Assembly (NCBI GenBank): GCA_024401275.1
Contig: JAKSLJ010000030.1
Span: 1-45,970, forward strand
Length of the DNA: 45,970 nt
Reading direction: 5' to 3'
Origin: Bacteroidaceae bacterium
Lineage (GTDB): Bacteria > Bacteroidota > Bacteroidia > Bacteroidales > Bacteroidaceae
The stretch's first letter is position 1, and every line of letters starts with the position of its first letter. The position numbers were made by a program, and so were the translations under genes. The notes below the pieces were generated by a model. It had not been told where the DNA came from. It saw only the letters and a program-made list of their open reading frames with translations, and made no database searches. Positions 8,720 through 45,815 of the stretch are shown piece by piece.

Positions 8720-8753
8720 TTTTTATTATTTATTATTATATTGTATCCCTTGT

Positions 8754-8813: not shown

Positions 8814-8822
8814 TTTCGTAAT

Positions 8823-9992: not shown

Positions 9993-10028
9993 TATTGTTA
10001 GGGTTAGAGTTTTAACTAGGTATTTTAT

Positions 10029-10089: not shown

Positions 10090-10102
10090 TCTCTAAGGAA
10101 TC

Positions 10103-11257
10103 TTATTCAATCTTACGAGCTCCGTCGGCAATCTCAACATCATAAACCTTAAGTTCAATGCCGAACTTTGCCTCGTACTCAGCCTTTGCAGTGTTGACGA
10201 AAGTTTCCTTGAGTTCGTTCTTCACGAGGTTTATTGTGCAGCCACCAAAGCCACCGCCCATAATGCGGCAACCGGTAACTCCATTAGCTTTAGCCACTTC
10301 CGCGAGGAAATCAATCTCTTCGCATGAAACTTCGTAATCTTTGCTCAAGCCTTCGTGAGTTTCGTACATTTTCTTGCCGACAGTTTCAAAATCGCCTGCC
10401 TGGAGAGCTTCACAAACAGCCATTACGCGCTCCTTTTCGCCGAGCACATAAACGGCACGCTTGTAGTCAACAGGATCAATCTCGTCCTTCTTTGCTTCGA
10501 GCATTGCGAAGTCAGCATCGCGGAGAGATTCAACGCCAAGAATCTCAGAAACTGTCTCACAGCTCTGACGACGCTGGTTGTAAGCATTTCCTTCCTCAGA
10601 AGCGAAGCTGTGCTTAACGCCAGAATTGCAGAGAACGAGAGAGTAAGCGTCAGTTTCGAATGGCATGTACTCGAATTCACGAGAACGACAATCAAGACGC
10701 ATCACCTTGCCTTTCTGTCCAAAGCAGCTTGCAAACTGATCCATGATGCCGCAATTCATTCCGAGATACTTGTGTTCAGTTGCCTGTCCGATGAGAGCCA
10801 AATCCCAAGTACTCACAGCATTGTCACCGCCAAAGAGGTCGTTGAGGGCAAAGCCAAAGCAACTTTCAAGAGCTGCAGAAGAAGACATTCCTGCGCCGAG
10901 AGGCACATCGCCGGAAAATGCAGCATTGAAGCCTTCAACCTTGACACCCTTGAGCTGAAGTTCACGCATAACACCGAAAATGTAGCGTGCCCAAGAAGCC
11001 TTTGGGCCATTCTCGTCATTAACAGCAAACTCCACTCTATCTTTCAAATCGATAGAGTAGAGTTGCACGGTGTCTGTTCCGTTAGGGCGGATTTCACAAA
11101 GGATGCCGTTAGAAACGGCACCGGGAAGTACGAATCCGTTATTATAGTCAGTATGCTCACCTATGATATTTATACGGCCAGGGGCAGCATAAATACTGCC
11201 CAATCGGCCGTCAAAATGTTTCACGAAGCGTGAGCGAACATGTTCAATTGTAACCAT
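10103..11257 (-). CDS. galK: Galactokinase
   Basis: GHMP-family kinase converting galactose to galactose-1-phosphate, first committed step of the Leloir pathway. The 384-aa protein has the family length. The galactokinase signature GRINIIGEHTDYNNG lies at about 27-41, the GHMP phosphate-binding loop PLGAGMSSSAALE at about 118-130, and the C-terminal GGGFGGCTINLV near 335. I use the ATG at 11255-11257; a TTG directly before it is not needed. No galT or galE is in the window, so the rest of the Leloir pathway must be elsewhere. It is flanked by the two mutarotase genes, a common arrangement for galactose use. Confidence 0.97.
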   Translation of the reverse strand: MVTIEHVRSRFVKHFDGRLGSIYAAPGRINIIGEHTDYNNGFVLPGAVSNGILCEIRPNGTDTVQLYSIDLKDRVEFAVNDENGPKASWARYIFGVMRELQLKGVKVEGFNAAFSGDVPLGAGMSSSAALESCFGFALNDLFGGDNAVSTWDLALIGQATEHKYLGMNCGIMDQFASCFGQKGKVMRLDCRSREFEYMPFETDAYSLVLCNSGVKHSFASEEGNAYNQRRQSCETVSEILGVESLRDADFAMLEAKKDEIDPVDYKRAVYVLGEKERVMAVCEALQAGDFETVGKKMYETHEGLSKDYEVSCEEIDFLAEVAKANGVTGCRIMGGGFGGCTINLVKNELKETFVNTAKAEYEAKFGIELKVYDVEIADGARKIE

Positions 11258-11273
11258 CAAACAAATGATAATT

Positions 11274-11335
11274 CAAAAGTGAAAATTGAAAAATGCTCAA
11301 GGTGCAGCACTTTTCAATTTTCATTTTCACTTTTT
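11274..11335. repeat. AT-rich inverted repeat between the two gal genes
   Basis: AAAAGTGAAAATTGAAAA pairs with TTTTCAATTTTCATTTTC around a small GC loop, reaching the stop codon of the upstream mutarotase gene. It resembles the AT-rich hairpin at 2089-2169 in style and position. On the minus strand it could form a hairpin at the 3' end of the first cistron. Confidence 0.65.
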
Positions 11336-12401
11336 ATTCAACAACACCAAACTTATAGATTGTCTTTGACTTAAGGCGCTCTCCTGGACGGAGAACTACA
11401 GAAGGGAAGTAGTTGCGGTTTGGTGAATCTGGGAAGTGCTGAGTTTCAAGACAAACAGCAGAGCGACGTGGGAATGTAGCGCCTTCAGGGCCAACGATGT
11501 CGCGAACGAAGTTGTCGCAGTAAAGCTGGCAACCTGGCTCAGTAGTATAAACTTCAAGAGTACGGCCGCTTTCTGGCTCTGTAAGACGAGCAGCGAATGA
11601 AAGTTCACCTTCCTCGCGCTTGTTGAGGACATAGTTATGGTCGTAACCAGAACCGTTCTTGATCTGCTCGTGATCTGCGTTCTGCTCAAGACCTATAGCC
11701 TTTGGCTTGCGGAAATCGAATGGAGTACCCTCTACCTTGAGGATTTCACCTGTAGGAATACACTCAGTGTCAACAGGGAGGTAGAAGTCAGCGTTCATCT
11801 CAAGAATCTGGTTGTCAACAGTAGCTGTTGGATTCTTGATACCACCGAGAGAGAAGAATGCGTGGTTAGTAAGAGCTGCGATAGTTGTCTTGTTTGTAGT
11901 TGCGAGATATTCAATGCAGAGTTCGTTGTCATCTGTAAGAGAATAGATAACAGTAACCTTCATCTCACCAGTGAAACCTTCCTCACCGTATGGAGAAGTG
12001 TACTTGAGCACGATTGTCTGGTCGTTCATAGGAGTAACGTCCCACACCTTCTTGTTGAAGCCCTTCATACCACCATGGAGAGTGTTTCTGCCCTCGTTCT
12101 GAGGAAGCTGATACTTCTTGCCATTGAGATAGAACTGACCACCTGCGATACGGTTGCCGTAACGACCGATAGTAGTTGAAAGATACTTCTGAGAGCTGTT
12201 GAGGATAGCATCAATGCTGTCGTGACCGCCAATCACGTTCTCAAAGTTACCGTTCTTGTCTGGTACATAAATACCGATGATGGCAGCACCGAAGTTTGTG
12301 ATGGCAACTTCCATTCCGTTAGCATTCTTGAGAGTGTAGAGATCTGTCTGCTTGCCATCTACTGTGGCCTGAAAAGCAGATTGCTGAATTCCTGGTATCA
12401 T
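11334..12401 (-). CDS. galM: Aldose 1-epimerase (galactose mutarotase), cytosolic
   Basis: Anomer interconversion of hexoses and arabinose inside the cell, feeding galactokinase and isomerases with the right anomer. The 355-aa protein has no signal peptide (MIPGIQQSAFQ...). The catalytic histidines lie in NTLHGGMKGFNKK and LTNHAFFSLGG and the general base glutamate in VCLETQHFPDSPN. It is the first gene after the -7 box at 12455-12462, followed 76 bp later by galK. It is clearly related to the lipoprotein mutarotase at 8823-9992 but differs enough that a recent duplication is unlikely. Confidence 0.95.
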   Translation of the reverse strand: MIPGIQQSAFQATVDGKQTDLYTLKNANGMEVAITNFGAAIIGIYVPDKNGNFENVIGGHDSIDAILNSSQKYLSTTIGRYGNRIAGGQFYLNGKKYQLPQNEGRNTLHGGMKGFNKKVWDVTPMNDQTIVLKYTSPYGEEGFTGEMKVTVIYSLTDDNELCIEYLATTNKTTIAALTNHAFFSLGGIKNPTATVDNQILEMNADFYLPVDTECIPTGEILKVEGTPFDFRKPKAIGLEQNADHEQIKNGSGYDHNYVLNKREEGELSFAARLTEPESGRTLEVYTTEPGCQLYCDNFVRDIVGPEGATFPRRSAVCLETQHFPDSPNRNYFPSVVLRPGERLKSKTIYKFGVVE

Positions 12402-19219: not shown

Positions 19220-19227
19220 AAAAAGGA

Positions 19228-19321
19228 ATTAGCCGAGTTCGGCTGATCTCCTTACTCAAACCAAAGGAATTAGCCGAGTTCGGCTGAAGCTATAAAAAGG
19301 ATTAGCCGAGTTCGGCTAATC
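19228..19321. repeat. Three tandem copies of a GCCGAGTTCGGC palindrome
   Basis: Between proS and the PqqD-like gene the phrase GGATTAGCCGAGTTCGGCT or GGAATTAGCCGAGTTCGGCT occurs three times, about 40 bp apart. The third copy is extended to the perfect 20-bp palindrome ATTAGCCGAGTTCGGCTAAT. A fourth copy is at 20570-20589. They could be transcription terminators, a regulator's operator or a small dispersed repeat. Confidence 0.8.
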
Positions 19322-19337
19322 CCCCAAAAACACCACT

Positions 19338-19604
19338 ATGAGAATAAAAGAAGGTTTCAATCTGCGTAATGTCTGCGGCGAGAACATCGTTGTTGCGGAA
19401 GGCGAAGCAAACATCGACTTCACCAGCGTGATCAGCGTAAACGAAACCGCTGCATGCATTTGGAAAGCTGTCAGCGGAAAGGACTTTGACGTAAACGACA
19501 TGGTAGAAGCCCTTATGGCAGAATACGAAGTTGACCGTGAAACAGCAGAAAGAGATTGCCAGCAGTTGGCTATCGATTGGAAGAAAGCCGATGTTCTTCA
19601 ATAA
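19338..19604 (+). CDS. PqqD-like peptide-binding (RRE-type) protein
   Basis: Small 88-aa protein of the PqqD family by pattern: N-terminal VCGENIVVAEGEANIDFTSVISVNETAACIWKAV, then helices around residues 50-80. PqqD-fold domains bind leader peptides of ribosomal peptide products and hand them to modifying enzymes. Here it is the first gene of a trio with an HPr-kinase-like protein (8 bp later) and an S26-type peptidase. No radical SAM enzyme, cyclase or obvious precursor peptide is adjacent, so the substrate is unknown. It follows three palindromic repeats and shows no recognisable promoter of its own. Confidence 0.75.
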   Translation: MRIKEGFNLRNVCGENIVVAEGEANIDFTSVISVNETAACIWKAVSGKDFDVNDMVEALMAEYEVDRETAERDCQQLAIDWKKADVLQ

Positions 19605-19612
19605 GATTTTAT

Positions 19613-20494
19613 ATGCAATTCAAAATAGCAGAACATATTGTTGAAGTTATGTCAACCAATCCAACGGTTGACATAATTTCTCTTGTACCCTCGCTAAAGC
19701 CTTTTGTATATAATAATGTAGGGGAAGACACTGAGCCGCAGCTCTCCATCGTCATAGACAATGAAATGGAGATAGCCACCGACTATCGCGAAATTGGCGA
19801 CTTCGACACTGGCAACGGCCACACAAAAGTGGAGAAGAAAGACGCTACCGGCGAGTATCAGTTTACCATCCGCAACATTGAAGAGAAGGAAGTTTGCTGG
19901 CTGAAAACCAATGCCGACTACTCCGATTGCCGCTGTCGTCTGCAAGGAAACAGCATGCTACAGTCATACGGCATAAACTCCGTACTCATGCTCTGCTACG
20001 CTTTCGCCACTGCCTCAAAGCAAACGCTGCTCATCCATGCTTCGTGCGTGAAGAAGGGCGAATATGCCTATGCCTTCATCGCAAAGAGCGGAACAGGAAA
20101 ATCCACTCAGGTAAGCAATTGGCTGAAACACATTCCTGGTTGCGAGCTTCTGAACGATGACAACCCTATCGTTCGCGTCATTGACGGCAAAGCATACATC
20201 TTCGGTTCTCCATGGTCGGGCAAAACTCCATGCTATCGTAACCGCAAGGCATATCTCGGCGCTATTACCCGCATAGAGCGTGCGCAGGAAAACAAAGTAA
20301 GGAAACTTGCTCCGGTGGAAGCATTCACCTCTCTCCTACCCTCTTGCTCAACGATGAAGTGGGAAAGCAAGCTCTACAACGATGTCATGGACACCATTTC
20401 AAAGATTGTGGAAACCTCGTGCATCTACACCCTCAGCTGCCTACCTGACAGGGAATCGGCAATCGTCTGCCACAACGGTATCAGCAAGTCTTAG
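19613..20494 (+). CDS. HPr-kinase-like P-loop protein
   Basis: 293-aa protein with the core of the HprK/PEP-carboxykinase fold. A Walker A motif, FIAKSGTGKSTQ, lies at about 154-165 after a typical LLIHASCVKKG strand; LLNDDNPIVRV (about 182) corresponds to the acidic catalytic loop and GSPWSGKTPCYRN (about 200) to the following loop. The N-terminal ~130 residues are poorly conserved. HprK-like proteins in lasso-peptide clusters phosphorylate precursor peptides, and the PqqD partner makes a peptide substrate plausible here; metabolic HPr kinase is less likely because the usual N-terminal domain is absent. The start at 19613 (MQFKIAEHIVEVM) follows the preceding stop by 8 bp. Confidence 0.75.
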   Translation: MQFKIAEHIVEVMSTNPTVDIISLVPSLKPFVYNNVGEDTEPQLSIVIDNEMEIATDYREIGDFDTGNGHTKVEKKDATGEYQFTIRNIEEKEVCWLKTNADYSDCRCRLQGNSMLQSYGINSVLMLCYAFATASKQTLLIHASCVKKGEYAYAFIAKSGTGKSTQVSNWLKHIPGCELLNDDNPIVRVIDGKAYIFGSPWSGKTPCYRNRKAYLGAITRIERAQENKVRKLAPVEAFTSLLPSCSTMKWESKLYNDVMDTISKIVETSCIYTLSCLPDRESAIVCHNGISKS

Positions 20495-20495
20495 T

Positions 20496-20535
20496 GGAAA
20501 CGACGCCCCATGGCATCGTTAAACAGCCGCAAAGC
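20496..20535. repeat. GACGCC palindromic repeat, short copy
   Basis: GGAAACGACGCCCCATGGCATCGTTAAACAGCCGCAAAG directly after the kinase gene matches the left part of the larger inverted repeat at 25250-25355. It is a dispersed intergenic element. Confidence 0.7.
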
Positions 20536-20569
20536 ATCTATAGCAATTAGCCGCAAAAGCATCTATAGC

Positions 20570-20589
20570 AATTAGCCGAGTTCGGCTAA
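20570..20589. repeat. Perfect 20-bp palindrome, fourth copy
   Basis: ATTAGCCGAGTTCGGCTAAT lies just before the peptidase gene. It matches the third copy of the array at 19228-19321, so the PqqD-like and kinase genes sit between copies of this palindrome. Confidence 0.8.
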
Positions 20590-20616
20590 TTGCCCCCCAA
20601 AAATAAACAAAACCAA

Positions 20617-21171
20617 GTGAAGAAACTAGCATTACTCATTTGCCGCATTTTGCGCAAATTTGTTCCGAAACCAAAAGGTCGCGGAACAACACCTGCGTCC
20701 ACCCACCGAGCGATGCGTAACGACGTTTTTCTTCCACTTGCCGTATCATATCTCGACACGAAGGAGAGTGTCAAGATTCCGCTTAAAGGCTTCAGTATGA
20801 GGCCGTTCCTTGAAAGCGACCGCGACATCGCCGTACTCGTCAAGCCGCACGCTCCCGTACTCTATGAGCCAGTTCTCGTGGAAGCAGACATCGTAAATCC
20901 ATTCACTCATCAGACGGAAAAGCGCTGGATTCTCCACAGAATAATCGAAATAAACGGCGAAAATATCACCCTGCTCGGCGATGGCAACCTATCGCCAGAA
21001 CATTGCAAAGCGGCAGACATCAGAGCCTCCATAAAAGGCTTTTACAGAAAAGGGCGAAGCGAAATGGACCTCATATCTGGCAGAAAATGGAAAGTTTATT
21101 CTTTCTTCTGGGTTCGCTTGCGTCCTATTCGCCGTTACCTGTTGTTCATCCATCGAAACATTTTCGTATAA
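20617..21171 (+). CDS. S24/S26-type peptidase with Ser/His/Asp motifs
   Basis: Likely serine peptidase related to signal peptidases. With a GTG start at 20617 it is 184 aa; a TTG at 20590 and an ATG at 20713 are also possible. The nucleophile motif is KGFSMRPFLE (S60), followed by RWILHRIIEI (H107) and LLGDGNLSPE (D122). The HRI and GDGN motifs match the ER/archaeal type of signal peptidase I, which uses histidine in place of lysine. No clear membrane anchor is visible, apart from weakly hydrophobic stretches at both ends, which is odd for an export peptidase. As the third member of the PqqD/kinase trio it may mature a modified peptide. Function is inferred from motifs and context only. Confidence 0.7.
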   Translation: MKKLALLICRILRKFVPKPKGRGTTPASTHRAMRNDVFLPLAVSYLDTKESVKIPLKGFSMRPFLESDRDIAVLVKPHAPVLYEPVLVEADIVNPFTHQTEKRWILHRIIEINGENITLLGDGNLSPEHCKAADIRASIKGFYRKGRSEMDLISGRKWKVYSFFWVRLRPIRRYLLFIHRNIFV

Positions 21172-25212: not shown

Positions 25213-25407
25213 ATGACTTAAAATGACTAATGACTAATGACTCGGGGTATTGGAAACGACGCCCCATAGCGTCGTTAAACTGCCGCAAAACATATATTGT
25301 TCATATACAGCTTTCATATTCGCTTCCTAACGACGCCATGGGGCGTCGTTTCCAACTTCATTCTCAATTACCCTGGTCATTAGTCATTAGTCATTTTCGG
25401 TCATTAA
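25213..25407. repeat. Large nested inverted repeat
   Basis: The outer arms are iterated AATGACTAATGACT on the left and AGTCATTAGTCATT on the right (25213-25242 and 25376-25407). The inner arms are TTGGAAACGACGCCCCAT (25250-) and ATGGGGCGTCGTTTCCAA (ending 25355), plus an internal CGTCGTTA/TAACGACG. The inner part is shared with 20496-20535. Confidence 0.85.
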
Positions 25408-25990: not shown

Positions 25991-28900
25991 ATGAAACATT
26001 TTACTCTATTTGTCATGTCTTTGCTCCTCACTGTTGGAGCCAAGGCACAAACAATCCTCTATGAGGATTTTGAGACAGAAGCCACAGAGTATTGCTCAGA
26101 ACCCGTTGCCACAGATCCAGGATGGACAGTCATCAACGGTTCGTCTGACGGCTTGCAATACAACTGGCACAACTACTACACAGAAAAGGGACACAACACT
26201 GGATCAAAGCACGTAGCTTGCGTTGACGCTAAGACATACGAAGCTGCAGGTGTAGGTCTTGGTCCTCGTGAGGAGATTCTCCTTTCACCGGAAATTGACC
26301 TCAACGGCACTTACCAGTTGAGCTTCGACTGGAGTGCAGGTCCTATGGCTTGGATGGACAAGAGCCGATACGACCTTCAGGTTCGCGTGGTGGTTGACGG
26401 TGACATGAGCAACGCTGAGACAATCTTCTCTATCCAGAACAACCAGATACTGAAGCTCAGTGGTGTTGATCCAAGTTCAATAGGCACATGGGATGCCCAC
26501 AGCTCAAAGGTAGGCCTTGAGGATTGGAAAGGTCAGAAAGTAAAGCTCGCTTTCGTCTATAAGATGATGAACGTGACAGGTAACCAGGTTTGCCTTGATA
26601 ACGTAAGAGTAAAGAAGTATTCTCCTGAGACAGGTCCTCGCGCCACTGTTTCACTCACAAACTACGTCTTCCCAGAAATGTACATTGGCGAGAAGTATTA
26701 CTCAGAAGTTATCAAGCTCACTAATGCAGGTCTTGACGGTTTGAAGATCACAAGCGTAGATTGCCCATCAGGTTTGGCTCTTAACATTGATCCTGCTACA
26801 GTAAACCTTGCTTCAAAGGAATACGTAAACTTCCAGCTTTGCTACACAGCAAGCTTGTTCTCTCCAGCAAGCGGCACTGTCGTGCTGCACACTACTGGCG
26901 GTGATGTTTCAATCAGCTTCACAGCTTCAAAACAAGCCATTGAAGACGGCTACGTAATAGAAAACTTCGAAAACGGTGTTCCTCCAACAGGATGGAAGAG
27001 CAAGGGTTGGGAGCGTAACTTGACAGCCATCGAAGGTGACTACTCAGCTTGGGCAAGCGGTGGTTATTCTACAGCTTACCTCACTTCACCACGACTGAAC
27101 GTGAAGAGTGGCGACAAGCTTTCATTCACTTACTATAACGACTTCACCAACGGCGACGAGGGCGAATGTCAGTACAACGACTTCTCTGTAGAAGTGAGCT
27201 ACGACGGCGGTGCATCTTGGCAAGAAATGTGGCTCTTTGACTACCAGCTGAGAACCATCCTCGAAACTCTCACTCTCAACTTCACACAGACAAGCGACAA
27301 CACATACGTAAGATGGAAGAACACAGCCGTAGAAATCACTGACGAAGGTGCAGAGCCTTATTCAAGTGTTACCATTGACCGCGTTATCCTTCCTGAATAC
27401 TATGGTGCCACTCTCGCTCCAAATGCTCCTGAACTCGTTTCTCCTGCAGATGGTACAGAAGAGGTTCTCTGCCGCAACATTGAACTCACATGGAAGCCAG
27501 TACTCTTCGCCGATGGCTATCGCGTATATGTTAAAGGTAATGGCAAGTACCTTGTGAATGGCGTTGACGCAGGTGATGCTTTGTCATACACTATCGCTCG
27601 CGCTGACTACGAGACAACTTACACATGGAAGGTTGTTCCTTACAACTCATACGGTTCAGCTACAGATGTTCCAGAATGGACATTCACTACTCAGAAGGAT
27701 GCCACAACAAGCATCTTCCCTTACACTGAGGACTTCAGCAAGTGTGGCACAGGTCTTCCTACAGGATGGACTTCTAGCAACACTTCAAACTATGGTGCTA
27801 ACCGCAACTGGAGCACTAATACAAGCAAGTATTGGGGTGATGAGCCAGGTTCTCTCTACAGCATGTGGCTCTCTACTGGCCAGGAAGCTTCTGTAACAAC
27901 ACAAGAATTCAAGCTCCCTGCAAGCGGAAACTATAAGATCTCATTCGTTTGGGGTAACAATCACCCAGCTTCACTCAAGATGGACGAGTCAGATCTCCAC
28001 CGCAACTCAACACCAGCTGGCGGCAACAACGGCTTCGCTGAGATTGTGTTTGAGGTTATCGCTGACGGTGTAGCTCATAAGGTTGGCTATATTTCAGAAC
28101 CAAAGATTGACGACGACTACAACTTCTGGACACCAGAATCATTCGACATCTCTGAATTTGCAGGTCAGACAGTTCAGTTCCGTTGGACACACCGCGCACT
28201 CAGCGGTCGCGACAATGGTGCAGGCCTTGACAACATTCTCATCGAGATGATCGAAGGTAATAAAGCTGCATTCAACCAGGAAGAGTGGAATGCTGGTAAG
28301 GTTAACTACAACAAGTCAACTTCTACAGCAACTGTCTTCACTCTCCTCAACAAGGGTAGCCAGTCACTCACAGTAGAAAGCGCTACATTCGCAACAGAAA
28401 ACTTCTCTACTTCACTCAAGGCAGGCGACGTCATTGCTGTTGACGGCGGCATTGAGTTTACAATGCAGTTCGACGCTCTCACAAGCGCAAGCAGCATTGA
28501 CGATGAACTCACAGTAAACTTCGAGGGTGGCTATAGCGTGACTCTCCCTGTTCATGGTGAGGCGCTCGCAGAGGATGTTCTCTACTATGCATTTGAGAAG
28601 AACGCTCTTGACTACAACTGGAAGGAAGACTTCACACTCATCGATGTTGACCGTCAGGCAACTCTCAACCTCTCTTCTTACTGGATTCAGTATGACCTTA
28701 AGGGTGCTCCATTCGCATTCGCTCAGGGTTACGACTCAGAGATGTACCACATCATGAAGCCTACATCTGGCGACGGCGCTCTCATCGCAGCTTCTACAGC
28801 TTCAGACGTAGCAGAATCAGAAGACTGGATTGTCAGCAAGGCTATCAGCATAAACAGCAATTCTACATTCGACTTCATGGCTCGCAACTACGAGTCGCTC

Positions 28901-29317
28901 GAAAGTGTTCTCCCTAACCCACGTCACCGCATTGAGGTTCTCGTAAGCACAACAAGCGCTACTGACCGCAAGTCGTTTGAGACAGTGATGAAGGGTCAGG
29001 AGATTCCTTTCCTCACAAGCGGAGCATGGCAGGCTTACAGCGTAGATCTCAGCAAATATGCTGGAAAGAAAGTTTACGTTGCACTGAAGCACTACACTGT
29101 CGGCGGCGGTTTGCTTGCTTTCTTTGATGACTTCACATTCAACCATGTTGGTGAATCTTCTACAAGCATCAATGCAGCTTCACTCGACCTTGACAACGCA
29201 ACAATCTACACCATCAACGGTGTTATGGTTGGCAAGGGCAACAAGCTGAACTCTCTCGGTCATGGCATGTACATCATCAAGACAGACAAGGGTCAGAAGA
29301 AGATTACAGTAAAATAA
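25991..29317 (+). CDS. Secreted multidomain choice-of-anchor-J protein, 1108 aa
   Basis: Large exported protein, probably a surface adhesin or glycan-binding scaffold. A signal peptide ends near residue 20 (VGAKAQ). By reading, it has four choice-of-anchor-J-like beta-sandwiches, at about 21-210 (ILYEDFETEA ... VCLDNVRV), 322-475, 575-760 and 870-1055, with SPD-2/Hydin-like strands at about 215-320 and 765-860 and a fibronectin III-like domain at about 480-572 (APELVSPADGTEEV). The C-terminus (IYTINGVMVG ... HGMYIIKTDKGQKKITVK) looks like a type IX-style sorting or anchoring motif. It has its own promoter and a terminator hairpin and is first of a run of related genes. Ligand unknown. Confidence 0.88.
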   Translation: MKHFTLFVMSLLLTVGAKAQTILYEDFETEATEYCSEPVATDPGWTVINGSSDGLQYNWHNYYTEKGHNTGSKHVACVDAKTYEAAGVGLGPREEILLSPEIDLNGTYQLSFDWSAGPMAWMDKSRYDLQVRVVVDGDMSNAETIFSIQNNQILKLSGVDPSSIGTWDAHSSKVGLEDWKGQKVKLAFVYKMMNVTGNQVCLDNVRVKKYSPETGPRATVSLTNYVFPEMYIGEKYYSEVIKLTNAGLDGLKITSVDCPSGLALNIDPATVNLASKEYVNFQLCYTASLFSPASGTVVLHTTGGDVSISFTASKQAIEDGYVIENFENGVPPTGWKSKGWERNLTAIEGDYSAWASGGYSTAYLTSPRLNVKSGDKLSFTYYNDFTNGDEGECQYNDFSVEVSYDGGASWQEMWLFDYQLRTILETLTLNFTQTSDNTYVRWKNTAVEITDEGAEPYSSVTIDRVILPEYYGATLAPNAPELVSPADGTEEVLCRNIELTWKPVLFADGYRVYVKGNGKYLVNGVDAGDALSYTIARADYETTYTWKVVPYNSYGSATDVPEWTFTTQKDATTSIFPYTEDFSKCGTGLPTGWTSSNTSNYGANRNWSTNTSKYWGDEPGSLYSMWLSTGQEASVTTQEFKLPASGNYKISFVWGNNHPASLKMDESDLHRNSTPAGGNNGFAEIVFEVIADGVAHKVGYISEPKIDDDYNFWTPESFDISEFAGQTVQFRWTHRALSGRDNGAGLDNILIEMIEGNKAAFNQEEWNAGKVNYNKSTSTATVFTLLNKGSQSLTVESATFATENFSTSLKAGDVIAVDGGIEFTMQFDALTSASSIDDELTVNFEGGYSVTLPVHGEALAEDVLYYAFEKNALDYNWKEDFTLIDVDRQATLNLSSYWIQYDLKGAPFAFAQGYDSEMYHIMKPTSGDGALIAASTASDVAESEDWIVSKAISINSNSTFDFMARNYESLESVLPNPRHRIEVLVSTTSATDRKSFETVMKGQEIPFLTSGAWQAYSVDLSKYAGKKVYVALKHYTVGGGLLAFFDDFTFNHVGESSTSINAASLDLDNATIYTINGVMVGKGNKLNSLGHGMYIIKTDKGQKKITVK

Positions 29318-29327
29318 AACTATTAAC

Positions 29328-29375
29328 GAGAAGGGCATTTGGCGATGAAACGAAAGCATCGCCAATGCTCTTCTT
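29328..29375 (+). terminator. Long hairpin after the 1108-aa gene
   Basis: GAGAAGGGCATTTGGCGATG pairs with CATCGCCAATGCTCTTCTT across a 9-base loop, followed by a pyrimidine-rich tract. It starts 10 bp after the stop codon and contains the first possible ATG (29345) of the next ORF, which argues for a later start of that gene. Confidence 0.75.
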
Positions 29376-29413
29376 CTGCTATTAAACTAGCAAAACTAAA
29401 CTTCGAAAGAAAA

Positions 29414-31822
29414 GTGAGGAAAACCATTTTCATAATAATGCTCATGCTGATTCCGGTTTTGGCATCGGCACAGACAAGAGACAAGAAACTGACCGTTCAC
29501 GCCACAACAGAAACTGGCGAAGATCTGGAAGGTCAGTTGGTGAGCGTTTTGCACACCGCGTATCAGATTTCCTATGGCACTCAGCGACTGGATGCTACGG
29601 GAACACTTAGCTTGAAAGTTTATGAGGGAGAACACCTCATCACTATACAGCGTCCTGGATATGAGGATGCCACAAAGACAGTTATGGTGAACACTGACAC
29701 AGAGGTTACGCTTAACCTTGTGGAGAAAGTGCGTTCGCCATACGCATTGAAAACGCAGCACTCACATGATGCGTTCACAGGAAACAACACTATCAACCTT
29801 GCATGGAACGAGGAGGCACCGGTTTTTGCTGACGACTTTGAATCGTACGAACCTTTCTCCATCAACTTCTCTCCATGGACAGGTATTGACAACGACCACG
29901 AAACAGCAGCTGCACTTATTGGCGATTATCCAAATCGTGGTGCAATGCAGTATGCACAAATCATAAATCCGCTTACCGTAGAGCCAACATGGTGGTATGA
30001 ATATGAAGTGCTGCGCCCACGTAGCGGAAAGCAATATGTAGGCTTCACACGCACGATGTCAGGCAATGCCAACGACGATTGGCTCATTTCTCCTGTTCTT
30101 ACAATCGGTACGGAGAATGTTCTCTCGTTCAGGGCAAAGGCGGCTGATAAATATCCTGAGCGCTTTCAGGTGTATGCCACTACAGTCATAGACAATCCTC
30201 AGCCATCTGATTTCAAGATGATAAGCGAAGGAAATTACGAAACTGTTGATTATACGTATTGGCATGAGATGACTTACAACCTTACGGAGTATGCGGGAAA
30301 GCAGATGCGCTTTGCCATTCATTATATAGGTGAATACAATCGTTTCGGCAACTTCATGCTTATGGTGGATGATGTTTTCGTAGGACAGCGAAACGATATT
30401 ACTCAAAGCAATCCTAACGAAAAGTTCATCATTTATCTTGACGGCGCAGAAATTGGCGAAACATACAACTATAACTATGCCATTGAGAATGTGCCTGCAG
30501 GTCATCATGTCATTGGCATAAAGGCGAAATACGTGGTTGCTGAGACAGACATCGTAACGACAGAGGTTGACATTGACGGCAGCAATTATGTTAATGTAAC
30601 ATTGAAAGCTGTAGCGGAAAGTATTCTCCAGCCAAAGGATTTGCAACTTACCATACTCAACAAACTCACAGCAGAAAGCATTATCTGCAAGACAGACAAC
30701 GACTGCAAGATATCAATCCCTTCACTTCCAAAGGGCGAATACATCATTACCAATGAAGAAGGTGCCTACGAAGCTATAAGCCAGAACGTTAGCATAAACG
30801 GAGATGACGAAATAGAGATAAATCTTACTGACAACAAAATAACTCCTTTCAACATTACCGTCAGCGAAAACAGCGAGGAAGGCAGCACTATCGCCCGTTG
30901 GAACCAGAAGCTTTCGTTTACTGACAGTTTTGAGGATTATGAAGACTTTGCCACAGGAGAATTTGGCGGTTGGACATCTCTCGACCTTGACCAAATGCCT
31001 GTTTATCCTATAGGTCTTGGCAATGCTCAAACAATTGTCAGCTTCCCTGGTTCTGGCACACCGGCTAATCCGCTGCCAGTAGCTCCTATCGTGTTCAATC
31101 CAAATACGACGAAGCCGGCTATGCTTCCTACCGACAAGGCGATGCAAGCTCCTACGGGTGACAAGCAGATCATCTTCTTCTCGCCACAGAGAGGAAAAGC
31201 CGACAAATGGCTCATCTCACCAGAGATTGAAATCCACGACAATTATACTATTGAGTTTACGGCTAAGGCTTATTCCATGTATCCTGAATCCATGGAGATT
31301 TGCGTAAATACTAAGGATGCCGACACGAAGAACTTCAAGGTTATTGCCGTGATTGACGAACTTGAGGAAGGCGAATGGGTAAGATACAAGGCAGATCTTA
31401 AAGCTTATGCCGGTCAGAACATCCGCATTGCCCTTCACTACACTTCTTACGACGCATTCTTCGCACAGGTTGACGACATCACTATAGGCAACGAGAATGG
31501 AACAGCGGAAATAGTTGATTTCGGAAATGTCATCAATTTCGAGATTTCGCTCGACGGAAAACCTTACGCCGTTGTAGAAGAGCCTTTCGTTGAACTTTCC
31601 GACTTGACCACCGGTTCTCATACTATTGGCGTAAAGGCAATCTACAAGAGCGGTGCCTCTGAAGAAGCATTCTATACTTTCAATGCTACTACAGGCATTA
31701 GTGCGGTTACACTGAATCCGATTTCAGGTAATGTCTATAACATTATGGGACAGAAGATTACGCATAAGAATGCCATGCCTGGTATCTATATCCGTAATGG
31801 TAAGAAGCTACTTGTGAAGTAA
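29414..31822 (+). CDS. Secreted choice-of-anchor-J protein, about 802 aa
   Basis: Exported protein with a short N-terminal beta-sandwich after the signal peptide (KLTVHATTETGEDLEGQLVSV, PEGA or carboxypeptidase-regulatory like), then two choice-of-anchor-J domains beginning VFADDFESYEPFSINF and SFTDSFEDYEDFATGEF; each contains the W-L-I-S-P core (DDWLISPVL, DKWLISPEI). The C-terminus VYNIMGQKITH ... GIYIRNGKKLLVK is the shared local sorting-like motif. I prefer the GTG at 29414, which gives MRKTIFIIMLMLIPVLASAQ, a classic signal peptide; the ATG at 29345 lies inside a terminator stem. It begins a tight run of four genes spaced 44-53 bp. Surface binding role inferred. Confidence 0.85.
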   Translation: MRKTIFIIMLMLIPVLASAQTRDKKLTVHATTETGEDLEGQLVSVLHTAYQISYGTQRLDATGTLSLKVYEGEHLITIQRPGYEDATKTVMVNTDTEVTLNLVEKVRSPYALKTQHSHDAFTGNNTINLAWNEEAPVFADDFESYEPFSINFSPWTGIDNDHETAAALIGDYPNRGAMQYAQIINPLTVEPTWWYEYEVLRPRSGKQYVGFTRTMSGNANDDWLISPVLTIGTENVLSFRAKAADKYPERFQVYATTVIDNPQPSDFKMISEGNYETVDYTYWHEMTYNLTEYAGKQMRFAIHYIGEYNRFGNFMLMVDDVFVGQRNDITQSNPNEKFIIYLDGAEIGETYNYNYAIENVPAGHHVIGIKAKYVVAETDIVTTEVDIDGSNYVNVTLKAVAESILQPKDLQLTILNKLTAESIICKTDNDCKISIPSLPKGEYIITNEEGAYEAISQNVSINGDDEIEINLTDNKITPFNITVSENSEEGSTIARWNQKLSFTDSFEDYEDFATGEFGGWTSLDLDQMPVYPIGLGNAQTIVSFPGSGTPANPLPVAPIVFNPNTTKPAMLPTDKAMQAPTGDKQIIFFSPQRGKADKWLISPEIEIHDNYTIEFTAKAYSMYPESMEICVNTKDADTKNFKVIAVIDELEEGEWVRYKADLKAYAGQNIRIALHYTSYDAFFAQVDDITIGNENGTAEIVDFGNVINFEISLDGKPYAVVEEPFVELSDLTTGSHTIGVKAIYKSGASEEAFYTFNATTGISAVTLNPISGNVYNIMGQKITHKNAMPGIYIRNGKKLLVK

Positions 31823-31875
31823 GACATAGTTGTAATTAGTAAATCATACATCAAAAATCATAAATCATAAATGGT

Positions 31876-40584: not shown

Positions 40585-43500
40585 ATGAAACGTTTACTTT
40601 TTCTCATGCAGATGCTCATCGCATTTGCAGCTGGAGTTTCAGCACAGGAAGTAGTAGCAACGTTCGATTTTGTTGCAAACCCTTGGGAACATGCTCAGGG
40701 GTTTGGTTCTCAGGGGCAGGATTCCTATGACCAGGGCAACATAACCGAACCTCTTGTTGCTCCCGACTATGCAGCAACACTGGCATTTGACAACACTGGA
40801 GCATCTACTCCGGCTCGTTTCTGGAACAGCACAGGTCAGGTGCGTGTGTATTCTGGTGCAAAAGCAACAATTACTGCACCTACAGGCAAGGCAATCAGCA
40901 AGATTGCTGTTACTGCCACAGCTTCAAACTACCTGGGAACTCCAGAACCTTTCATAGCAGATGGTTCTGTAGCAACTGCAACTCTTGCCGAGGCTGTTGA
41001 ATCCTACACTTTTACAGCTAACGCTAACGCTCGTTGGACAAAGATTGAGGTGACATTGGTACCTGCAACAAGCGGTGGTGGAGAGGATCCTGCCCCTTCT
41101 CCTACAGGTTCTATTGAAATCAGCAAAAGCAATTCAGCTTCAACAGGATTCCCAATTTCCGCAGGTGCTGATGCTGCAAGCCAGAAGGCTCAATTCATTT
41201 ATCCAGCTTCTATGCTGACTGACTTGGTCGGTAAAGAGATTACAGAAATCAAGCTTCACCTTAGCGATGCTGGTTCTATCCAGTCATCAGGCGCAACAGA
41301 AGTAATCAACCTTGCTGAGGTTGATGCAACTGCATTCTCTTCAGCTGCATTCCTTACTGCAGACTTCACAAATGTTTACAACGCTACAGCTCAGACAGTA
41401 AATGGTTCAAAGGAATGGGTGTTCACACTCTCTTCACCATATGTCTATGAAGGTGGAAACCTCCTCGTACAGATGGAAACCAACAATCCTTCAGGTATGT
41501 TGGGTAGTCCAAATTTCTATGGAACAACTCAGTCAGGAAATGTAGGCTATATTAGTTATACAGAATTTGGTTACTCGGAATCTAAATTGAGTAAGTACCT
41601 CCCAATGATGACTGTCACTTATCAGGAGGCAGTAACTCCAGATCCAGAAGATCCTTCTGAGCCTACTGTTGCTACATTCGACTTCTACAACAACCCATGG
41701 GGTAAATCTTTCGGAAATTGTCCTGATGATACATTTACTGCAAGTGATGGTGCTACCACTATTTCATTTATCCCAGGCGGAACAAGCACATACACAATTC
41801 AGTACAAGATGACTGATAACCAACTACGTGTATACAAGGATGATAAGATTGTTATTAAAGCACCTGCAGGTAAGGCAATATCTCAGTTGGATTTTGTTTA
41901 CGCAAGTTCTTATGATGGTGGCTTAGGTTCTTCTATTAAACTTGATGAACCTGCAGCAACTCAGACTCTCACGCTTACAGGTAATGCTCGTTGGACAAAA
42001 ATTGACGTAACTCTCGTTCCTGGTAGCGATGATGCTGGTGGCGACGCTGGTGGCTTTGAAATCCCGGAAGGTTATGCAGAAACTGCAAACTACACTTATA
42101 ACTTTGACGATTTGAAGACAAAGTCTTTAAACGGAAGTAGTGGTGTTGATCCTTCACAGTTGGCTCTAGGTTGGGGATATGCAAGTCAGCAGACAACACC
42201 TGGTGGCTTCTTTGGTTACAGCACATACACTTATCACTCAGGTAAAGCTCCGTATCTCGCTAACAAGAGTGCTGAGCCTCTACTTGACTATTTCGTAACC
42301 CCTGCTGTTAAGGGTGCTGTTAAGTTGTTCGTAAGGAATTACTCTACATCATCTTCCTATGATGGCAAGCAGTATCTTAAGTTCTACAAGGTAACAAAGA
42401 ATGAGGATGGCACATTCACTGCTCCTGCAGCTGATGCAGAGCCTTTCTTCACAAAGGAGTTCACTCTGTCGGAATCATCATGGGCAGAGCTTGAGATTGC
42501 AAATCTTGAGGATTACGAGTACATCGCATTCACAGGTAGCTACTGCTACTTCGATGACTTTTCTGCAGAGTATGCTGTTATGCCAGAGAACCCTGCACTC
42601 CAAGTTATTGAGATGACAACAGAAGTGGCTCAGGGGGGCAATATCTATGCTGATGAAACAGGTAAGGGTACATGGACTGGTTCTATCAAGGTTAAGAACA
42701 CTGGTAATGTTGATCTTGTAGCAGGTCGTACCAACTACTCAGTAACAGTTACTTCACAGTCAACAAGTTCTGTTACTATTCCAGAAACAATCATTCCTAT
42801 TTCTGTAGATCTTGCACAAGGCGAAGAAACAGAAATTCCTCTTGAAATTGAGTGTCAGATCGTTGATCTCTCAAAGGATGGATGGACTGCTATCCGTGCT
42901 ACATCTAATATCATAGAGTATGGCTTGAAAAACACTGACACTAAGTATTACAAGCAGTCTCCTTGGTTCTATGTTAAGAACTATTCTCCAAAAATCTCTG
43001 TAAAGGAGGGTGTTGTTGGTGCTCTTGACTCATACGTTCTTCCATTCGGCTTGGTTTCTGGTTCAGGATCAAAGACTGTAACAATTACGAACGATGGTGG
43101 TTCTGACGCTGTAATCACAGCTATTGAGACAACAATCCCTGAGGGATTCTCACACAACGCAGAACTTCCTCTCACAATCGCTAAGGGTGAGACAGCTGAC
43201 GTTGTTCTTACTATTGGCGGTGCAGAAGGCTACAAGGAAGGAACAGTAACAATCACTTACGGTAATGGTCTTACATTCACTACAAAGAAACTCTCTGCTA
43301 CTATAATCGCAGAAGGCACATACCTTGAGACATTTGGCACTCAGCTTTCACCTGCTTCTTCATACGTTCCTAGTGGTTGGATAAACCAGAATGGTTCAAG
43401 TTGGGAGGCAGATGCTTCAAGCAGTAATGTTTATATGAAAAGTGGTAACCAAACATATAAGACCGAGATGCTTGTCTCTCCAAAGATTACCTTCGCAGAA

Positions 43501-45645
43501 GGTCAGGTTCTTACAGCTGGCGTAGGCGTAGGTACAACTTATATGTCAGGTTCTTCTACTGACGTTTATCTCCAGATTTACTACTCTACAGACCGTGAGA
43601 ACTGGCAGCTTGCTAATGTACTTGCTTACTCAACATCAAAGAAATCTGCTACAACGGATATCTACGGTAATTCTATCGATGCAAGCAAGGTTACTACATG
43701 GGGCTCATTTGACGGCTCTGGCATAGGCAATGCTAAAGCATTCACTATTGACGGTATCCCTGCAGGTGACTACTACATTGGCTTTAACTCTGGCTACACA
43801 CAGATTGACTACATCTTCGGTGGTAAGCTCGCAGAACTTGAAAACGATCTCTACCTTACAAGTTATTCGGTTAATGCTGGTCAGTCAATGGTTAACAACC
43901 CTATATCTGCAACTGTTTCATATACTAACATGATGAATGCTACAGCCCCAGCACGTACAGTCGCTCTCTACGATGGTGAGACTCTCATCGAGGAGAAGGC
44001 AGGTGCAGACCTTGAGGCTTATGGTTCAGAGACAGTTGAATTCACATTTACTCCACACGCTGTAGGTACAATGAATCTGCAGGTTAAGATTTCTAATGTT
44101 GAAGGTGACTACTCTGTCGCTACAGAAACTAAGTCTGTAAATGTTAAGGAAGAGACTATGGTAGGCGAGAAACTCGTTGGTGAGCGTACATCTAACGCAG
44201 CTGGCGTCGCTCCTATCTCTCTCTACTACTACAACTCTCACGTAGAATGGATTTGGGATGCTGAACATCTTGGTCTTAACGATGGTGATAAGATTAATAG
44301 CCTTACATTCTATTATTATACCACATCTAAGGATCTTCCTGGCAAGAAGCTGAGAATCTACATGGTTAACACTGAGGATAGCAAGGTTGGATCTGCTTTC
44401 TATAATGGTAACACCATCGAGCAGATGACTCTTACACCTGTATTCTCAAGCGATAACTACACATATCCTAAGGCTGGTTCATCTTCTGACCATGCGGAGA
44501 TGAAGTTCACACTTGACAATGACTTTGTATATACAGGTAACAACATTCGTGTTATTGTAATCAGTGAGGACTATGCACATACCGCAGAAGCATCTGGTTC
44601 ATTTGAGTACTACAATTCAACTACTGGTACAATGGCATACAACCGTAGTGACACTAACAGCACTTACGAGAATGCTACATCGATGAATACGTCAACCAAT
44701 GTTCCTGTAGCTACTCTCGGTCTCTCAGTTACAGCTCCAGTTCTCTCAGGTATTATTACAGAAGCTGGCGATGCTCTTGCAGGTGCTACAGTTGAAGCTA
44801 AGTCGGGTGAGGTTGTTTACACTGCAACTACCGACGCTGACGGTAAGTACTCTATGGAAATCATGCAGCCATCGCTTGAGTATGTAGTGACTGTAACTGC
44901 TGATGGTTATGATCCATTTGTTTCTGAGGCAATGACTATTGCTGAGAACACAGTTCTCGACCATGACTTCTTTAACGGTGCAATTGTAAAGATCAACTCA
45001 ACAATCGGCTACTCTACATTCTATGATTCTGAGCATGCCGTTAAGATTCCTGAAGGCGTAACTCCATACGTATTTGGTTTGAGCCTTACTGCAAATGAAA
45101 TGGCACTTGTTTCTTACGCTGATTACCTTGAAGCATACGATAAAACTTATGAGAATGTAGTTCAAGCTGGCGAAGCTGTTGTTCTTATGGGATCAGGTGA
45201 TGTAGCTCTTGAATACACTACATCAAGCCTTCCTCTTATTGAAGACAACTGGCTCTCTGGTTTTGATACTCCTGCGACTACGACGGTTAGCGCATACTGG
45301 TCTTATATGGATTACACAGATGCTGATTGCTACTTCTATGCTCTCACTCTCAACAAGGATAAGGATCCTGATAGCGTAGGTTTCTACTGGATGAACGAGA
45401 CAGGTGCTCCATTCGTATCAGCAGCTCACAAGGCTTACCTCTCTATTCCAATGGATGCATTCAGTTCGTTTGCTGGTGGCGATGCATTTGTAAAGGGCAT
45501 CCCATTCCATAAGGATGCTACAGCAATCAAGAACGTTAACGCAAACCGCAACGACGGCCAGATGTACAACATCGCTGGTCAGCGCGTAAACGGAAACGTT
45601 AAGGGCATCGTTATCAAGAATGGTAAGAAGTTCATGGTTAAATAA
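40585..45645 (+). CDS. Giant secreted multidomain surface protein, 1686 aa
   Basis: Exported adhesin-like protein with signal peptide ending VSAQ (about 21). An N-terminal unit (23-160, ATFDFVANPW ... NARWTKIEVTLVP) is repeated at 362-480 (ATFDFYNNPW ... NARWTKIDVTLVP). Between them, about 175-345 is the module shared with the 433-aa protein (FIYPASMLTDLVGKEITEIKL ... PYVYEGGNLLVQM). Then come a choice-of-anchor-J-like domain (500-665), Ig-like strands, another anchor-J-like region near 910-1080, a CARDB-like domain near 1090-1190, a second shared-type module near 1190-1380 and a carboxypeptidase-regulatory-like domain near 1381-1465 (GIITEAGDALAGATVEAK). The C-terminus is MYNIAGQRVNGNVKGIVIKNG. 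Ligand unknown; a 49-aa peptide gene follows after 20 bp. Confidence 0.88.
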   Translation: MKRLLFLMQMLIAFAAGVSAQEVVATFDFVANPWEHAQGFGSQGQDSYDQGNITEPLVAPDYAATLAFDNTGASTPARFWNSTGQVRVYSGAKATITAPTGKAISKIAVTATASNYLGTPEPFIADGSVATATLAEAVESYTFTANANARWTKIEVTLVPATSGGGEDPAPSPTGSIEISKSNSASTGFPISAGADAASQKAQFIYPASMLTDLVGKEITEIKLHLSDAGSIQSSGATEVINLAEVDATAFSSAAFLTADFTNVYNATAQTVNGSKEWVFTLSSPYVYEGGNLLVQMETNNPSGMLGSPNFYGTTQSGNVGYISYTEFGYSESKLSKYLPMMTVTYQEAVTPDPEDPSEPTVATFDFYNNPWGKSFGNCPDDTFTASDGATTISFIPGGTSTYTIQYKMTDNQLRVYKDDKIVIKAPAGKAISQLDFVYASSYDGGLGSSIKLDEPAATQTLTLTGNARWTKIDVTLVPGSDDAGGDAGGFEIPEGYAETANYTYNFDDLKTKSLNGSSGVDPSQLALGWGYASQQTTPGGFFGYSTYTYHSGKAPYLANKSAEPLLDYFVTPAVKGAVKLFVRNYSTSSSYDGKQYLKFYKVTKNEDGTFTAPAADAEPFFTKEFTLSESSWAELEIANLEDYEYIAFTGSYCYFDDFSAEYAVMPENPALQVIEMTTEVAQGGNIYADETGKGTWTGSIKVKNTGNVDLVAGRTNYSVTVTSQSTSSVTIPETIIPISVDLAQGEETEIPLEIECQIVDLSKDGWTAIRATSNIIEYGLKNTDTKYYKQSPWFYVKNYSPKISVKEGVVGALDSYVLPFGLVSGSGSKTVTITNDGGSDAVITAIETTIPEGFSHNAELPLTIAKGETADVVLTIGGAEGYKEGTVTITYGNGLTFTTKKLSATIIAEGTYLETFGTQLSPASSYVPSGWINQNGSSWEADASSSNVYMKSGNQTYKTEMLVSPKITFAEGQVLTAGVGVGTTYMSGSSTDVYLQIYYSTDRENWQLANVLAYSTSKKSATTDIYGNSIDASKVTTWGSFDGSGIGNAKAFTIDGIPAGDYYIGFNSGYTQIDYIFGGKLAELENDLYLTSYSVNAGQSMVNNPISATVSYTNMMNATAPARTVALYDGETLIEEKAGADLEAYGSETVEFTFTPHAVGTMNLQVKISNVEGDYSVATETKSVNVKEETMVGEKLVGERTSNAAGVAPISLYYYNSHVEWIWDAEHLGLNDGDKINSLTFYYYTTSKDLPGKKLRIYMVNTEDSKVGSAFYNGNTIEQMTLTPVFSSDNYTYPKAGSSSDHAEMKFTLDNDFVYTGNNIRVIVISEDYAHTAEASGSFEYYNSTTGTMAYNRSDTNSTYENATSMNTSTNVPVATLGLSVTAPVLSGIITEAGDALAGATVEAKSGEVVYTATTDADGKYSMEIMQPSLEYVVTVTADGYDPFVSEAMTIAENTVLDHDFFNGAIVKINSTIGYSTFYDSEHAVKIPEGVTPYVFGLSLTANEMALVSYADYLEAYDKTYENVVQAGEAVVLMGSGDVALEYTTSSLPLIEDNWLSGFDTPATTTVSAYWSYMDYTDADCYFYALTLNKDKDPDSVGFYWMNETGAPFVSAAHKAYLSIPMDAFSSFAGGDAFVKGIPFHKDATAIKNVNANRNDGQMYNIAGQRVNGNVKGIVIKNGKKFMVK

Positions 45646-45665: not shown

Positions 45666-45815
45666 ATGAAAACATACGTAAAACCAGAAATTGAATTGGT
45701 GAGTGCACAGACAGAATCTCTCCTGATTAATGCAACTAACACTATGGGAGATGGCGAACAGCTCTCAAAGGAGAACAAATTCATTTTTGATGACTCAGAA
45801 GAAGACGAACTCTAA
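45666..45815 (+). CDS. Short acidic-tailed peptide, 49 aa
   Basis: ORF too short for routine calling, starting MKTYVKPEIELVSAQTESLL and ending in an acidic tail FIFDDSEEDEL. An AGGAG sequence sits about 11 bases before the ATG, unusual for this phylum, and an intrinsic terminator follows 31 bp after the stop. The opening MK-x-Y-x-KP-x-IE resembles many small Bacteroidales proteins of unknown function and has the look of a leader/core peptide; no signal peptide is present. It is 20 bp downstream of the 1686-aa gene and probably on its transcript. Being a substrate of the PqqD/kinase/peptidase trio is only a hypothesis. Confidence 0.75.
   Translation: MKTYVKPEIELVSAQTESLLINATNTMGDGEQLSKENKFIFDDSEEDEL

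Follow-up and report, generated by a model that had tools for sequence, protein, structure and literature searches.

Evidence for a conserved PqqD, HprK-like kinase and signal-peptidase-like gene trio in Bacteroidales that probably matures scattered YxxP-leader peptides in trans

The stretch of DNA analysed here (hereafter the window) comprises 45,970 nucleotides, positions 1 to 45,970 of contig JAKSLJ010000030.1 from the Bacteroidaceae bacterium assembly GCA_024401275.1. It carries three adjacent genes on the + strand, for a PqqD-fold protein, an HprK-like kinase and a Ser/His/Asp peptidase, all of them present as the initial annotation had described. Our analysis suggests that this trio is a trans-acting maturation unit of the ribosomally synthesized and post-translationally modified peptide (RiPP) type and the Bacteroidales counterpart of the biosynthesis of linear polyphosphorylated peptides (LPP), a reading to which we assign a probability of roughly three in four. 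LPP are known from the lppA-K-B-S-D-N genes of Paenibacillus alginolyticus (Popov et al. 2026, PMC13381572). The host genome (3.2 Mb in 71 contigs, 91% complete) is Prevotella-like, judged by its named relatives. The three genes, and the residues of the kinase site, are as follows.

19338..19604, + strand: PqqD-fold stand-alone RiPP recognition element (RRE; LppB/B1-like), 88 aa, from the Pfam PqqD match and profile A8
19613..20494, + strand: kinase of the HprK/PEP carboxykinase (PEPCK) fold, a putative peptide kinase (LppK-like), 293 aa from ATG, from predicted structure, Foldseek and invariant residues
Kinase site residues: H142; P-loop A157-KSGTG-K163-S164; D182 and D183
20617..21171, + strand: Ser/His/Asp peptidase of the signal-peptidase/LexA fold (LppS-like), 184 aa from GTG, from predicted structure, Foldseek and invariant residues

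The kinase frame is also opened by an earlier TTG at 19556, and the peptidase frame has an alternative TTG start at 20590.

The window PqqD protein matches Pfam PF05402 with E = 4.3e-15 and 56 bits (cut-off 23). A profile of 43 PqqD sequences (A8) searched against the PDB matched the lasso RREs TfuB1 (6jx3, E = 2.8e-6) and TbiB1 (E = 0.077) as well as 9x8z (E = 0.046) and 9x90 (E = 0.056), where 9x8z is LppB with its leader and 9x90 is PbaB1 with its leader (PMC13381572). N35 and Y63 are invariant in the PqqD family and D73 is conserved in at least 90% of its members; the alignment places these three residues at N33, Y60 and D70 of LppB. The LppB register (chain number minus 18; N51 and D88 of 9x8z) was fixed from other residues named in that paper, and T30, L32, N33, V35, C39, Y60, V63, V67, D70 and F74 all fall in register at offset 18. 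Formation of the LppB-leader complex is lowered by D70A and almost abolished by N33A, and RREs of the paeninodin type, which have Gly at the N33 position, prefer WxxP (PMC13381572); the window protein would therefore be expected to prefer YxxP. The PqqD fold claimed for this gene is borne out by the Pfam match, and the protein retains the leader-binding residues of a characterised RRE.

The structure of the kinase was modelled with AlphaFold2 from 61 sequences, giving a mean predicted local distance difference test score (pLDDT) of 95.8 and a predicted template modelling score (pTM) of 0.92. In Foldseek the model matched PEP carboxykinases (best E = 5.4e-6) and the HPr kinases 1knx (E = 1.0e-5) and 3tqf (E = 8.2e-4), so that the HprK-like P-loop assignment, originally made from motifs, holds at the level of the predicted fold. 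The window sequence alone found no match in Pfam or in a single-protein PDB search, a profile search of the PDB gave none that was meaningful, and the match to NCBIfam HprK_rel_A was weak (26 bits, cut-off 200); across the family, 44 of the 61 kinases match HprK_rel_A and 40 match ScmC (E ≤ 0.001). H142, S159-G160-T161-G162-K163-S164-T165 and N181-D182-D183 are invariant in all 61. Activity of the lasso kinase BsfK is lowered when H148, G163, K169, S170, D186 or D187 is changed (PMC10368454), and matching by inspection gave H142, K163, S164, D182 and D183 as counterparts. The spacing from His to Lys is 21 in both proteins, and the Asp pair lies two residues further on in the window kinase. Completeness of the ATP site had been named as a check on the initial annotation, and its residues are kept in both the window kinase and the family.

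The peptidase model, built from 60 sequences, reached a pLDDT of 91.1. LexA, UmuD' and lambda/phage repressor C-domains occupied ranks 1-26 in Foldseek (probability 0.98-1.00, best E = 1.5e-3); no match fell below E = 1e-3, and the signal-peptidase homologue SipA was found at E = 0.076 with a root-mean-square deviation of 2.2. The window peptidase alone matched no Pfam family, and neither its single-protein PDB search (no match) nor the profile search (none meaningful) added to this. Family members do reach Pfam at E ≤ 0.01, 42/60 matching Peptidase_S24 and 5/60 S26. S60, H107 and D122 are invariant in all 60 sequences, and the protein is assigned to the Ser/His/Asp peptidases of the LexA/signal-peptidase fold. 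In two relatives (L302:6095-8326(-) and L076:1716-3956(+)) a peptidase of S24/S26 type is fused to an ABC (ATP-binding cassette) exporter half with membrane and ATPase domains, giving proteins of 743 and 746 aa. These fusions resemble C39 peptidase-containing exporters in design but carry a signal-peptidase-type domain instead, and they suggest that cleavage is tied to export.

Co-occurrence of the three genes was examined in a sample of 60 genomes (the host, 35 of the same genus and 24 others), 35 of which contained the window kinase when it was used as a single query and 34 when it was used as a profile (E = 1e-6). All three genes stood together at 36 of the 39 kinase loci fetched from this sample, some genomes having two or three loci; L064 lacks the peptidase, and L072 and L077 lack both partners. 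The trio was likewise complete at 76/80 named Bacteroidales loci, which are the best 80 of at least 490 relatives, all picked by the kinase. Of the remaining loci, three (L117, L131 and L150) break off no more than about 270 nt from the peptidase gene; in the fourth, L146, about 800 nt remain, and this stretch holds no PqqD gene. The order kinase-peptidase-PqqD was found in 74/76 complete loci and the order PqqD-kinase-peptidase in the window and in L103, and at L142 the peptidase and PqqD genes lie 4-5 kb away on the opposite strand. Such association is far beyond chance, and the trio is real and conserved. PqqD proteins of the window type were found in 0/7 kinase-free genomes (five of the same genus, three of them just 56-79% complete, and two of another genus of the family), in a search without positive control. 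The trio is also carried by the cultured species Segatella albensis and Prevotella veroralis. At many same-genus loci (L039-L055) it is preceded by a sigma-factor gene (c3, RpoD-like by inspection) and by the gene of a small, conserved protein (c5, about 150 aa) that looks secreted.

The initial annotation had reported no precursor gene next to the trio. A candidate exists within the window, 24.5 kb downstream of the trio, directly behind the gene for a large protein.

45666..45815, + strand: candidate precursor peptide MKTYVKPEIELVSAQTESLLINATNTMGDGEQLSKENKFIFDDSEEDEL, 49 aa, with a YxxP leader, from profile A5
40585..45645, + strand: large secreted-looking protein, 1686 aa, with a C-terminal tail resembling those of the type IX secretion system (T9SS), directly upstream of the precursor gene

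This precursor matches leader profile A5 with E = 1.3e-10, although it is itself a row of that profile; its gene has AGGAG shortly upstream and begins 20 nt after the end of the gene before it. In some relatives, too, short genes that share this start occur near the trio, two in L059 and others in L069, L071, L074 and L057. Successive profiles of these short genes gave 13 and then 20 matches in the host genome, and 21 precursors were read there from the loci. For the comparison of genomes below, leader profile A5 was made from 18 leaders (E = 0.05) and A11 from 51 leaders (E = 0.01). Among 50 loci of relatives a convincing peptide was present in 45 and absent from 5, with one peptide read twice, so that host and relatives together gave 65 unique peptides of 38-74 aa (66 before removal of the duplicate). 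A loose YxxP regular expression returned mostly chance matches (49 in the reversed control) and was abandoned for the profiles; a pattern search of the host genome was noisy as well (13 matches versus 6 in the control).

The leader runs roughly MKKxYIKPExEVIxLxxExLLAGS. Counted from the Tyr at position 0, the positions conserved in the 65 peptides are Pro at 3, mostly V/M/I/F at 5, Val at 7, L/I/V at 10, L/I at 16, small residues at 18 and Ser at 19 or 20. A Ser lies at Tyr+18 to +21 in 60/65 peptides, for a tail background of 7.8% per residue. The remainder is acidic (24% D/E) and variable. A C-terminal S/T..W.D/E motif was present in 19/65 peptides (mean 2.6 and maximum 8 in 1000 core shuffles), nearly all of them outside the host genome (1/21 there). 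Two pairs of paralogous peptides gave nonsynonymous (dN) and synonymous (dS) divergences of 0.12 and 0.58 (ratio about 0.20) and of 0.06 and 0.42 (about 0.15), as expected for translated genes under selection. When seven peptides were compared with NCBIfam and Pfam no family was found, the single match being DUF5972 at E = 0.13. In distant Bacteroidales (L262, L266, L268, L271-L274, L279 and L284) a common sub-form was observed, in which the YxxP leader is followed by ID-x-E-I-S/T-L-I-M-M-x and then by a Pro/Asp-rich core that often ends near NPF or SPF.

The distribution of kinase and peptides was compared in 247 Bacteroidales genomes, the host included, of which 36 were positive for the kinase profile at E = 1e-10. 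Profile A5 matched 11 genomes, eight of them kinase-positive; the three kinase-negative ones gave single weak matches (E = 0.0099 or worse) at loci without a convincing peptide (L189, L191 and L192), and one kinase-positive genome (G176, L190) was also read as junk. With A11, peptides were found in 17/36 kinase genomes versus 1/211 kinase-free genomes (Fisher's exact test, p = 1.9e-15, kinship ignored), and when the seven genomes that had supplied leaders were left out the counts were 10/29 versus 1/211 (p = 1.4e-9, kinship ignored). The A11 matches of 15 of these 18 genomes, those with a single match and the kinase-free genome G271 included, were re-read as short open reading frames with a YxxP leader, and the peptides of the remaining three (the host, G090 and G146) were read separately. 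Peptides occur in 14 taxonomic families, every one of which belongs to the 26 that have the kinase. Within the genus of the host, neither kinase nor peptides were found in G020 (92% complete). The search for short open reading frames co-occurring with the trio, proposed at the outset, thus gave peptides that co-occur with its kinase.

In several distant genomes a peptide gene lies close to the trio or inside it. At L292 (G125) the PqqD, peptide, kinase and peptidase genes follow one another on one strand within 2.3 kb, the same gene order is found at L291 (G164), and L303 (G178) has PqqD, peptide and kinase. L293 (G265) reads peptide, a 661-aa gene, kinase, peptidase, PqqD, a nucleotidyltransferase of family NTP_transf_5 (PF14907; hereafter NTP transferase) and an ABC exporter-like gene. 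The peptide gene lies upstream of kinase-peptidase-PqqD at L071 (G054), about 160 nt from the kinase gene, and 1.3 kb from the kinase gene at L182 (a Muribaculaceae genome). At L074 the order is radical SAM, YxxP peptide (with Cys), PqqD, peptidase, kinase. Trio copies beside radical SAM genes were seen at L068:8338-11787, L070:1413-4443 and L074:334-3255; L068 and L070 each have a further PqqD gene, and Cys-bearing YxxP-type peptides are present in L068 and L074. These are probably radical-SAM RiPP clusters with the same leader type. A radical SAM route was considered for the window itself too and set aside.

The precursor genes of the host genome are scattered in a patterned way. Nineteen of the 21 lie directly behind one of 18 genes whose products end in a common tail (YNLNGQRV...KGIYIKNGKKFIVK), on the same strand and with a gap of -4 to 257 nt. 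A tail profile (A10), partly built from these upstream tails, found 78 tails in the host genome (E = 0.1), including all 18 upstream genes, and the probability of such adjacency by chance is about 1e-27, assuming about 2700 genes (an estimate) and independent peptides. The two other peptides lie behind an unrelated 373-aa gene (L243) and before a secreted-looking gene (L252). At the 50 loci of relatives, a same-strand gene ended within 300 nt upstream of the peptide in 35, and 24 of the 35 were tail-positive (E = 0.001; one duplicate). G090 has peptides with longer N-termini, and seven that were read are not tail-linked. The protein at 40585..45645 has the A10 tail (E = 6.1e-16, being itself an A10 row) and a CarboxypepD_reg domain (E = 1.2e-12). 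Judged by their look, the tails are taken for T9SS sorting signals; in Pfam, where they score weakly, one of nine reached Por_Secre_tail, with 22.7 bits against a cut-off of 27. Positions 25991-45645 of the window encode eight consecutive large secreted-looking proteins, all positive for a T9SS-like tail profile (E = 1.5e-5 or better); a YxxP peptide comes behind the eighth and none of the others.

Taken as a whole the finding is stronger than first stated, in that there is a family of precursors, with a link to the trio and a pattern in the way its genes are scattered. The proposal that the unit acts in trans on scattered peptides gains from the conservation of the trio, the retained leader-binding and ATP-site residues, the scattered YxxP family and the co-occurrence.

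The closest precedent is LPP biosynthesis. In Paenibacillus the discrete RRE LppB binds a YxxP leader, the HprK-like kinase LppK phosphorylates Ser3 of the core, the signal-peptidase-like LppS, which needs its Ser, His and Asp, cuts off the leader only in the presence of LppB, and an NTP transferase and an MsbA-like exporter complete the set; the clusters have one to three precursors, and LPP are reported as restricted to Bacillota (PMC13381572). Both systems share a discrete PqqD-type RRE, an HprK-like kinase, a signal-peptidase-I-like Ser/His/Asp peptidase, the absence of a cyclase, a YxxP leader and highly variable precursor C-termini, and the window RRE has the Asn and Asp that fix the Pro and Tyr of YxxP in LPP. 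NTP transferase and exporter genes, part of LPP clusters, occur in some clusters of the window's relatives; they are absent from the immediate neighbourhood of the window trio, and the rest of the host genome was not searched for them. Since the same three parts are present here and the other two in clusters of some relatives, the trio would work like the LPP enzymes. It may or may not fall within the LPP clade: the leader lacks the VLxHQxIxFET element, and by profile score the RRE is nearer to TfuB1 than to LppB. The differences lie in the leader (YxxPxVLxHQxIxFETxxS in LPP, about YIKPExEVIxLxxExLLAGS here), in the orphan trio with at least 21 scattered precursors, most of them behind genes with T9SS-like tails, unlike LPP clusters, and in the peptidase-exporter fusions of two relatives, also unlike LPP. 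Compared with LPP, the novelty thus lies in the phylum and the leader type, in the apparent service of many precursors in trans and in the T9SS-like genes next to them. A literature search that covered few subscription journals, and preprints just via PubMed Central, found neither the unit nor the peptides described for Bacteroidales, and the string 'bacteroid' is absent from the main text of PMC13381572. RiPP clusters known from Bacteroidales have C39 peptidase exporters, Gly-Gly (GG) leaders and radical SAM or YcaO enzymes; they share with the window system the taxonomic order and the short precursors, export is linked to leader removal in them, and the passages available describe no PqqD-HprK-signal peptidase units (PMC10352776).

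By analogy with these close precedents, the PqqD protein would grip the YxxPx[V/M/I/F] of the leader and present the precursor to the kinase and the peptidase. The kinase would phosphorylate the precursor, most likely at the Ser found at Tyr+18 to +21, and the signal-peptidase-like enzyme would remove the leader near that Ser. The cut might, as in LPP, follow E-S/T near Tyr+14, the conserved Ser then being the phosphoacceptor a few residues into the core; Glu followed by Ser, Thr or Pro at the reduced LPP-like element is present in 18/65 peptides. Signal peptidases cut after sites of the A-x-S type, and cleavage might alternatively occur in this style after A-x-S at about Tyr+20. The acidic linear core would be exported by an ABC exporter such as those adjacent or fused in relatives. 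In the lineage of the window the precursors would have left the operon and multiplied to at least 21, mostly as the second gene behind a tail gene, and given this position those proteins are probably the partners of the mature phosphopeptides at the cell surface.

Several findings weigh against this reading. Peptides are not clearly denser around the trio, ten having been found in 2.09 Mb (119 trio loci) versus 21 in the 3.2-Mb host genome, although six of the ten lie within 2 kb of the kinase gene and the reversed control gave none. No peptide was obtained from 19 of the 36 kinase genomes. G271 (76% complete), whose family includes two kinase genomes, has a real-looking peptide without a kinase; two peptide genes are present in G032, a genome of the same genus that is 97% complete, with neither kinase nor PqqD found; and in G001, G023 and G027 (56-79% complete) there were 10, 3 and 5 peptide matches and the kinase was not found. 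YxxPx[V/M/I/F] is present in the leaders but most of the VLxHQxIxFET element of LPP is not, and the LPP cleavage site is therefore not conserved as such. Profile A8 scores LppB at just E = 0.046, weaker than TfuB1. Finally, the first Gly of the P-loop, six residues before the Lys and important in BsfK, is A157 in the window kinase; this Gly is kept in part of the kinase family.

That last substitution, the weak scores of the window kinase against described kinase families and the peptidase-ABC exporter fusions in two genomes would suit an explanation in which the peptides are matured but the kinase is a checkpoint or a nucleotide-dependent chaperone, the essential steps being leader removal and export. 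We consider this unlikely, given that the remaining residues which matter in BsfK are retained (PMC10368454), that LppK, a kinase whose gene has the same neighbours, does phosphorylate its precursor (PMC13381572) and that a Ser stands at the same place in 60/65 peptides. The peptides might also be regulatory or accessory open reading frames linked to T9SS-like genes, with the trio serving another substrate, as the position of 19/21 host peptides behind tail genes rather than beside the trio, and the peptides of G032 without a trio, would suggest; the co-occurrence with the kinase, the peptide within the trio operon in several distant genomes and the YxxP motif with its matching PqqD residues make this very unlikely.

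The initial annotation had drawn its analogy from lasso peptides, and part of it stands. In phosphorylated lasso pathways (paeninodin; Bsf) a YxxPxL leader is combined with a discrete PqqD RRE that speeds the HprK-like kinase and with RRE-dependent cleavage (PMC10368454), so that YxxP leader, discrete PqqD RRE and HprK-like kinase are common to lasso and window systems. Lasso pathways also have a transglutaminase-like B2 peptidase and a cyclase (PMC7533575), whereas the window peptidase is signal-peptidase-like and no cyclase was found in the host genome; LPP is thus closer. A lasso pathway with its cyclase encoded elsewhere, in which the trio would supply B1, the kinase and a leader peptidase of unusual type for knotted lasso products, is highly improbable, since a PF00733 search of the host genome (91% complete) gave just two proteins, one AsnB-like with an MCGI start and one MnmA-like, both named by inspection, and the cores are acidic and very variable, even though leader and PqqD are lasso-like, A8 matches TfuB1 best, and HprK and NTP transferases accompany lasso clusters (PMC7533575).

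The trio is flanked by a prolyl-tRNA synthetase gene (read by inspection) on one side and a gene for a DUF5686 protein on the other. A dispersed intergenic repeat of about 40 nt, with about 50 partial copies genome-wide, lies at 20489-20542 between the kinase and peptidase genes; some copies are paired in inverted orientation, as at 25248-25297 (+) and 25328-25354 (-). A palindromic intergenic element is present in imperfect copies at 19220-19335 and 20560-20600, which share the exact 18-mer TTAGCCGAGTTCGGCTAA at 19302 and 20572. On the - strand, positions 2-12401 carry a sugar-use gene set (by inspection) with transketolase, ribulokinase, arabinose isomerase, ribulose-5-phosphate epimerase, a sodium-sugar transporter, galactose mutarotases and galactokinase.

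LPP were published in May 2026 as restricted to Bacillota (PMC13381572), and an equivalent machine would now be placed in many Bacteroidales, together with a first clue to function, namely work at the cell surface with secreted proteins. Short proteins that had no name would thereby gain a likely fate, and the question can be addressed in culture, since Segatella albensis and Prevotella veroralis, among others, have the trio. In a bolder reading, which we hold to be somewhat less likely than not, one orphan trio would make about 20 phosphopeptides, most of them co-operonic with one type IX-secreted protein each and serving it as an acidic partner at the surface, be it a cofactor, a ligand or an assembly tag; this would add a new layer to the cell-surface biology of Prevotella-like bacteria. 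A second design of peptidase-containing peptide exporter, built around a signal-peptidase-type domain, is suggested by the peptidase-exporter fusions, and the tail-gene adjacency suggests that large secreted-looking proteins of these bacteria have an unsuspected peptide partner.

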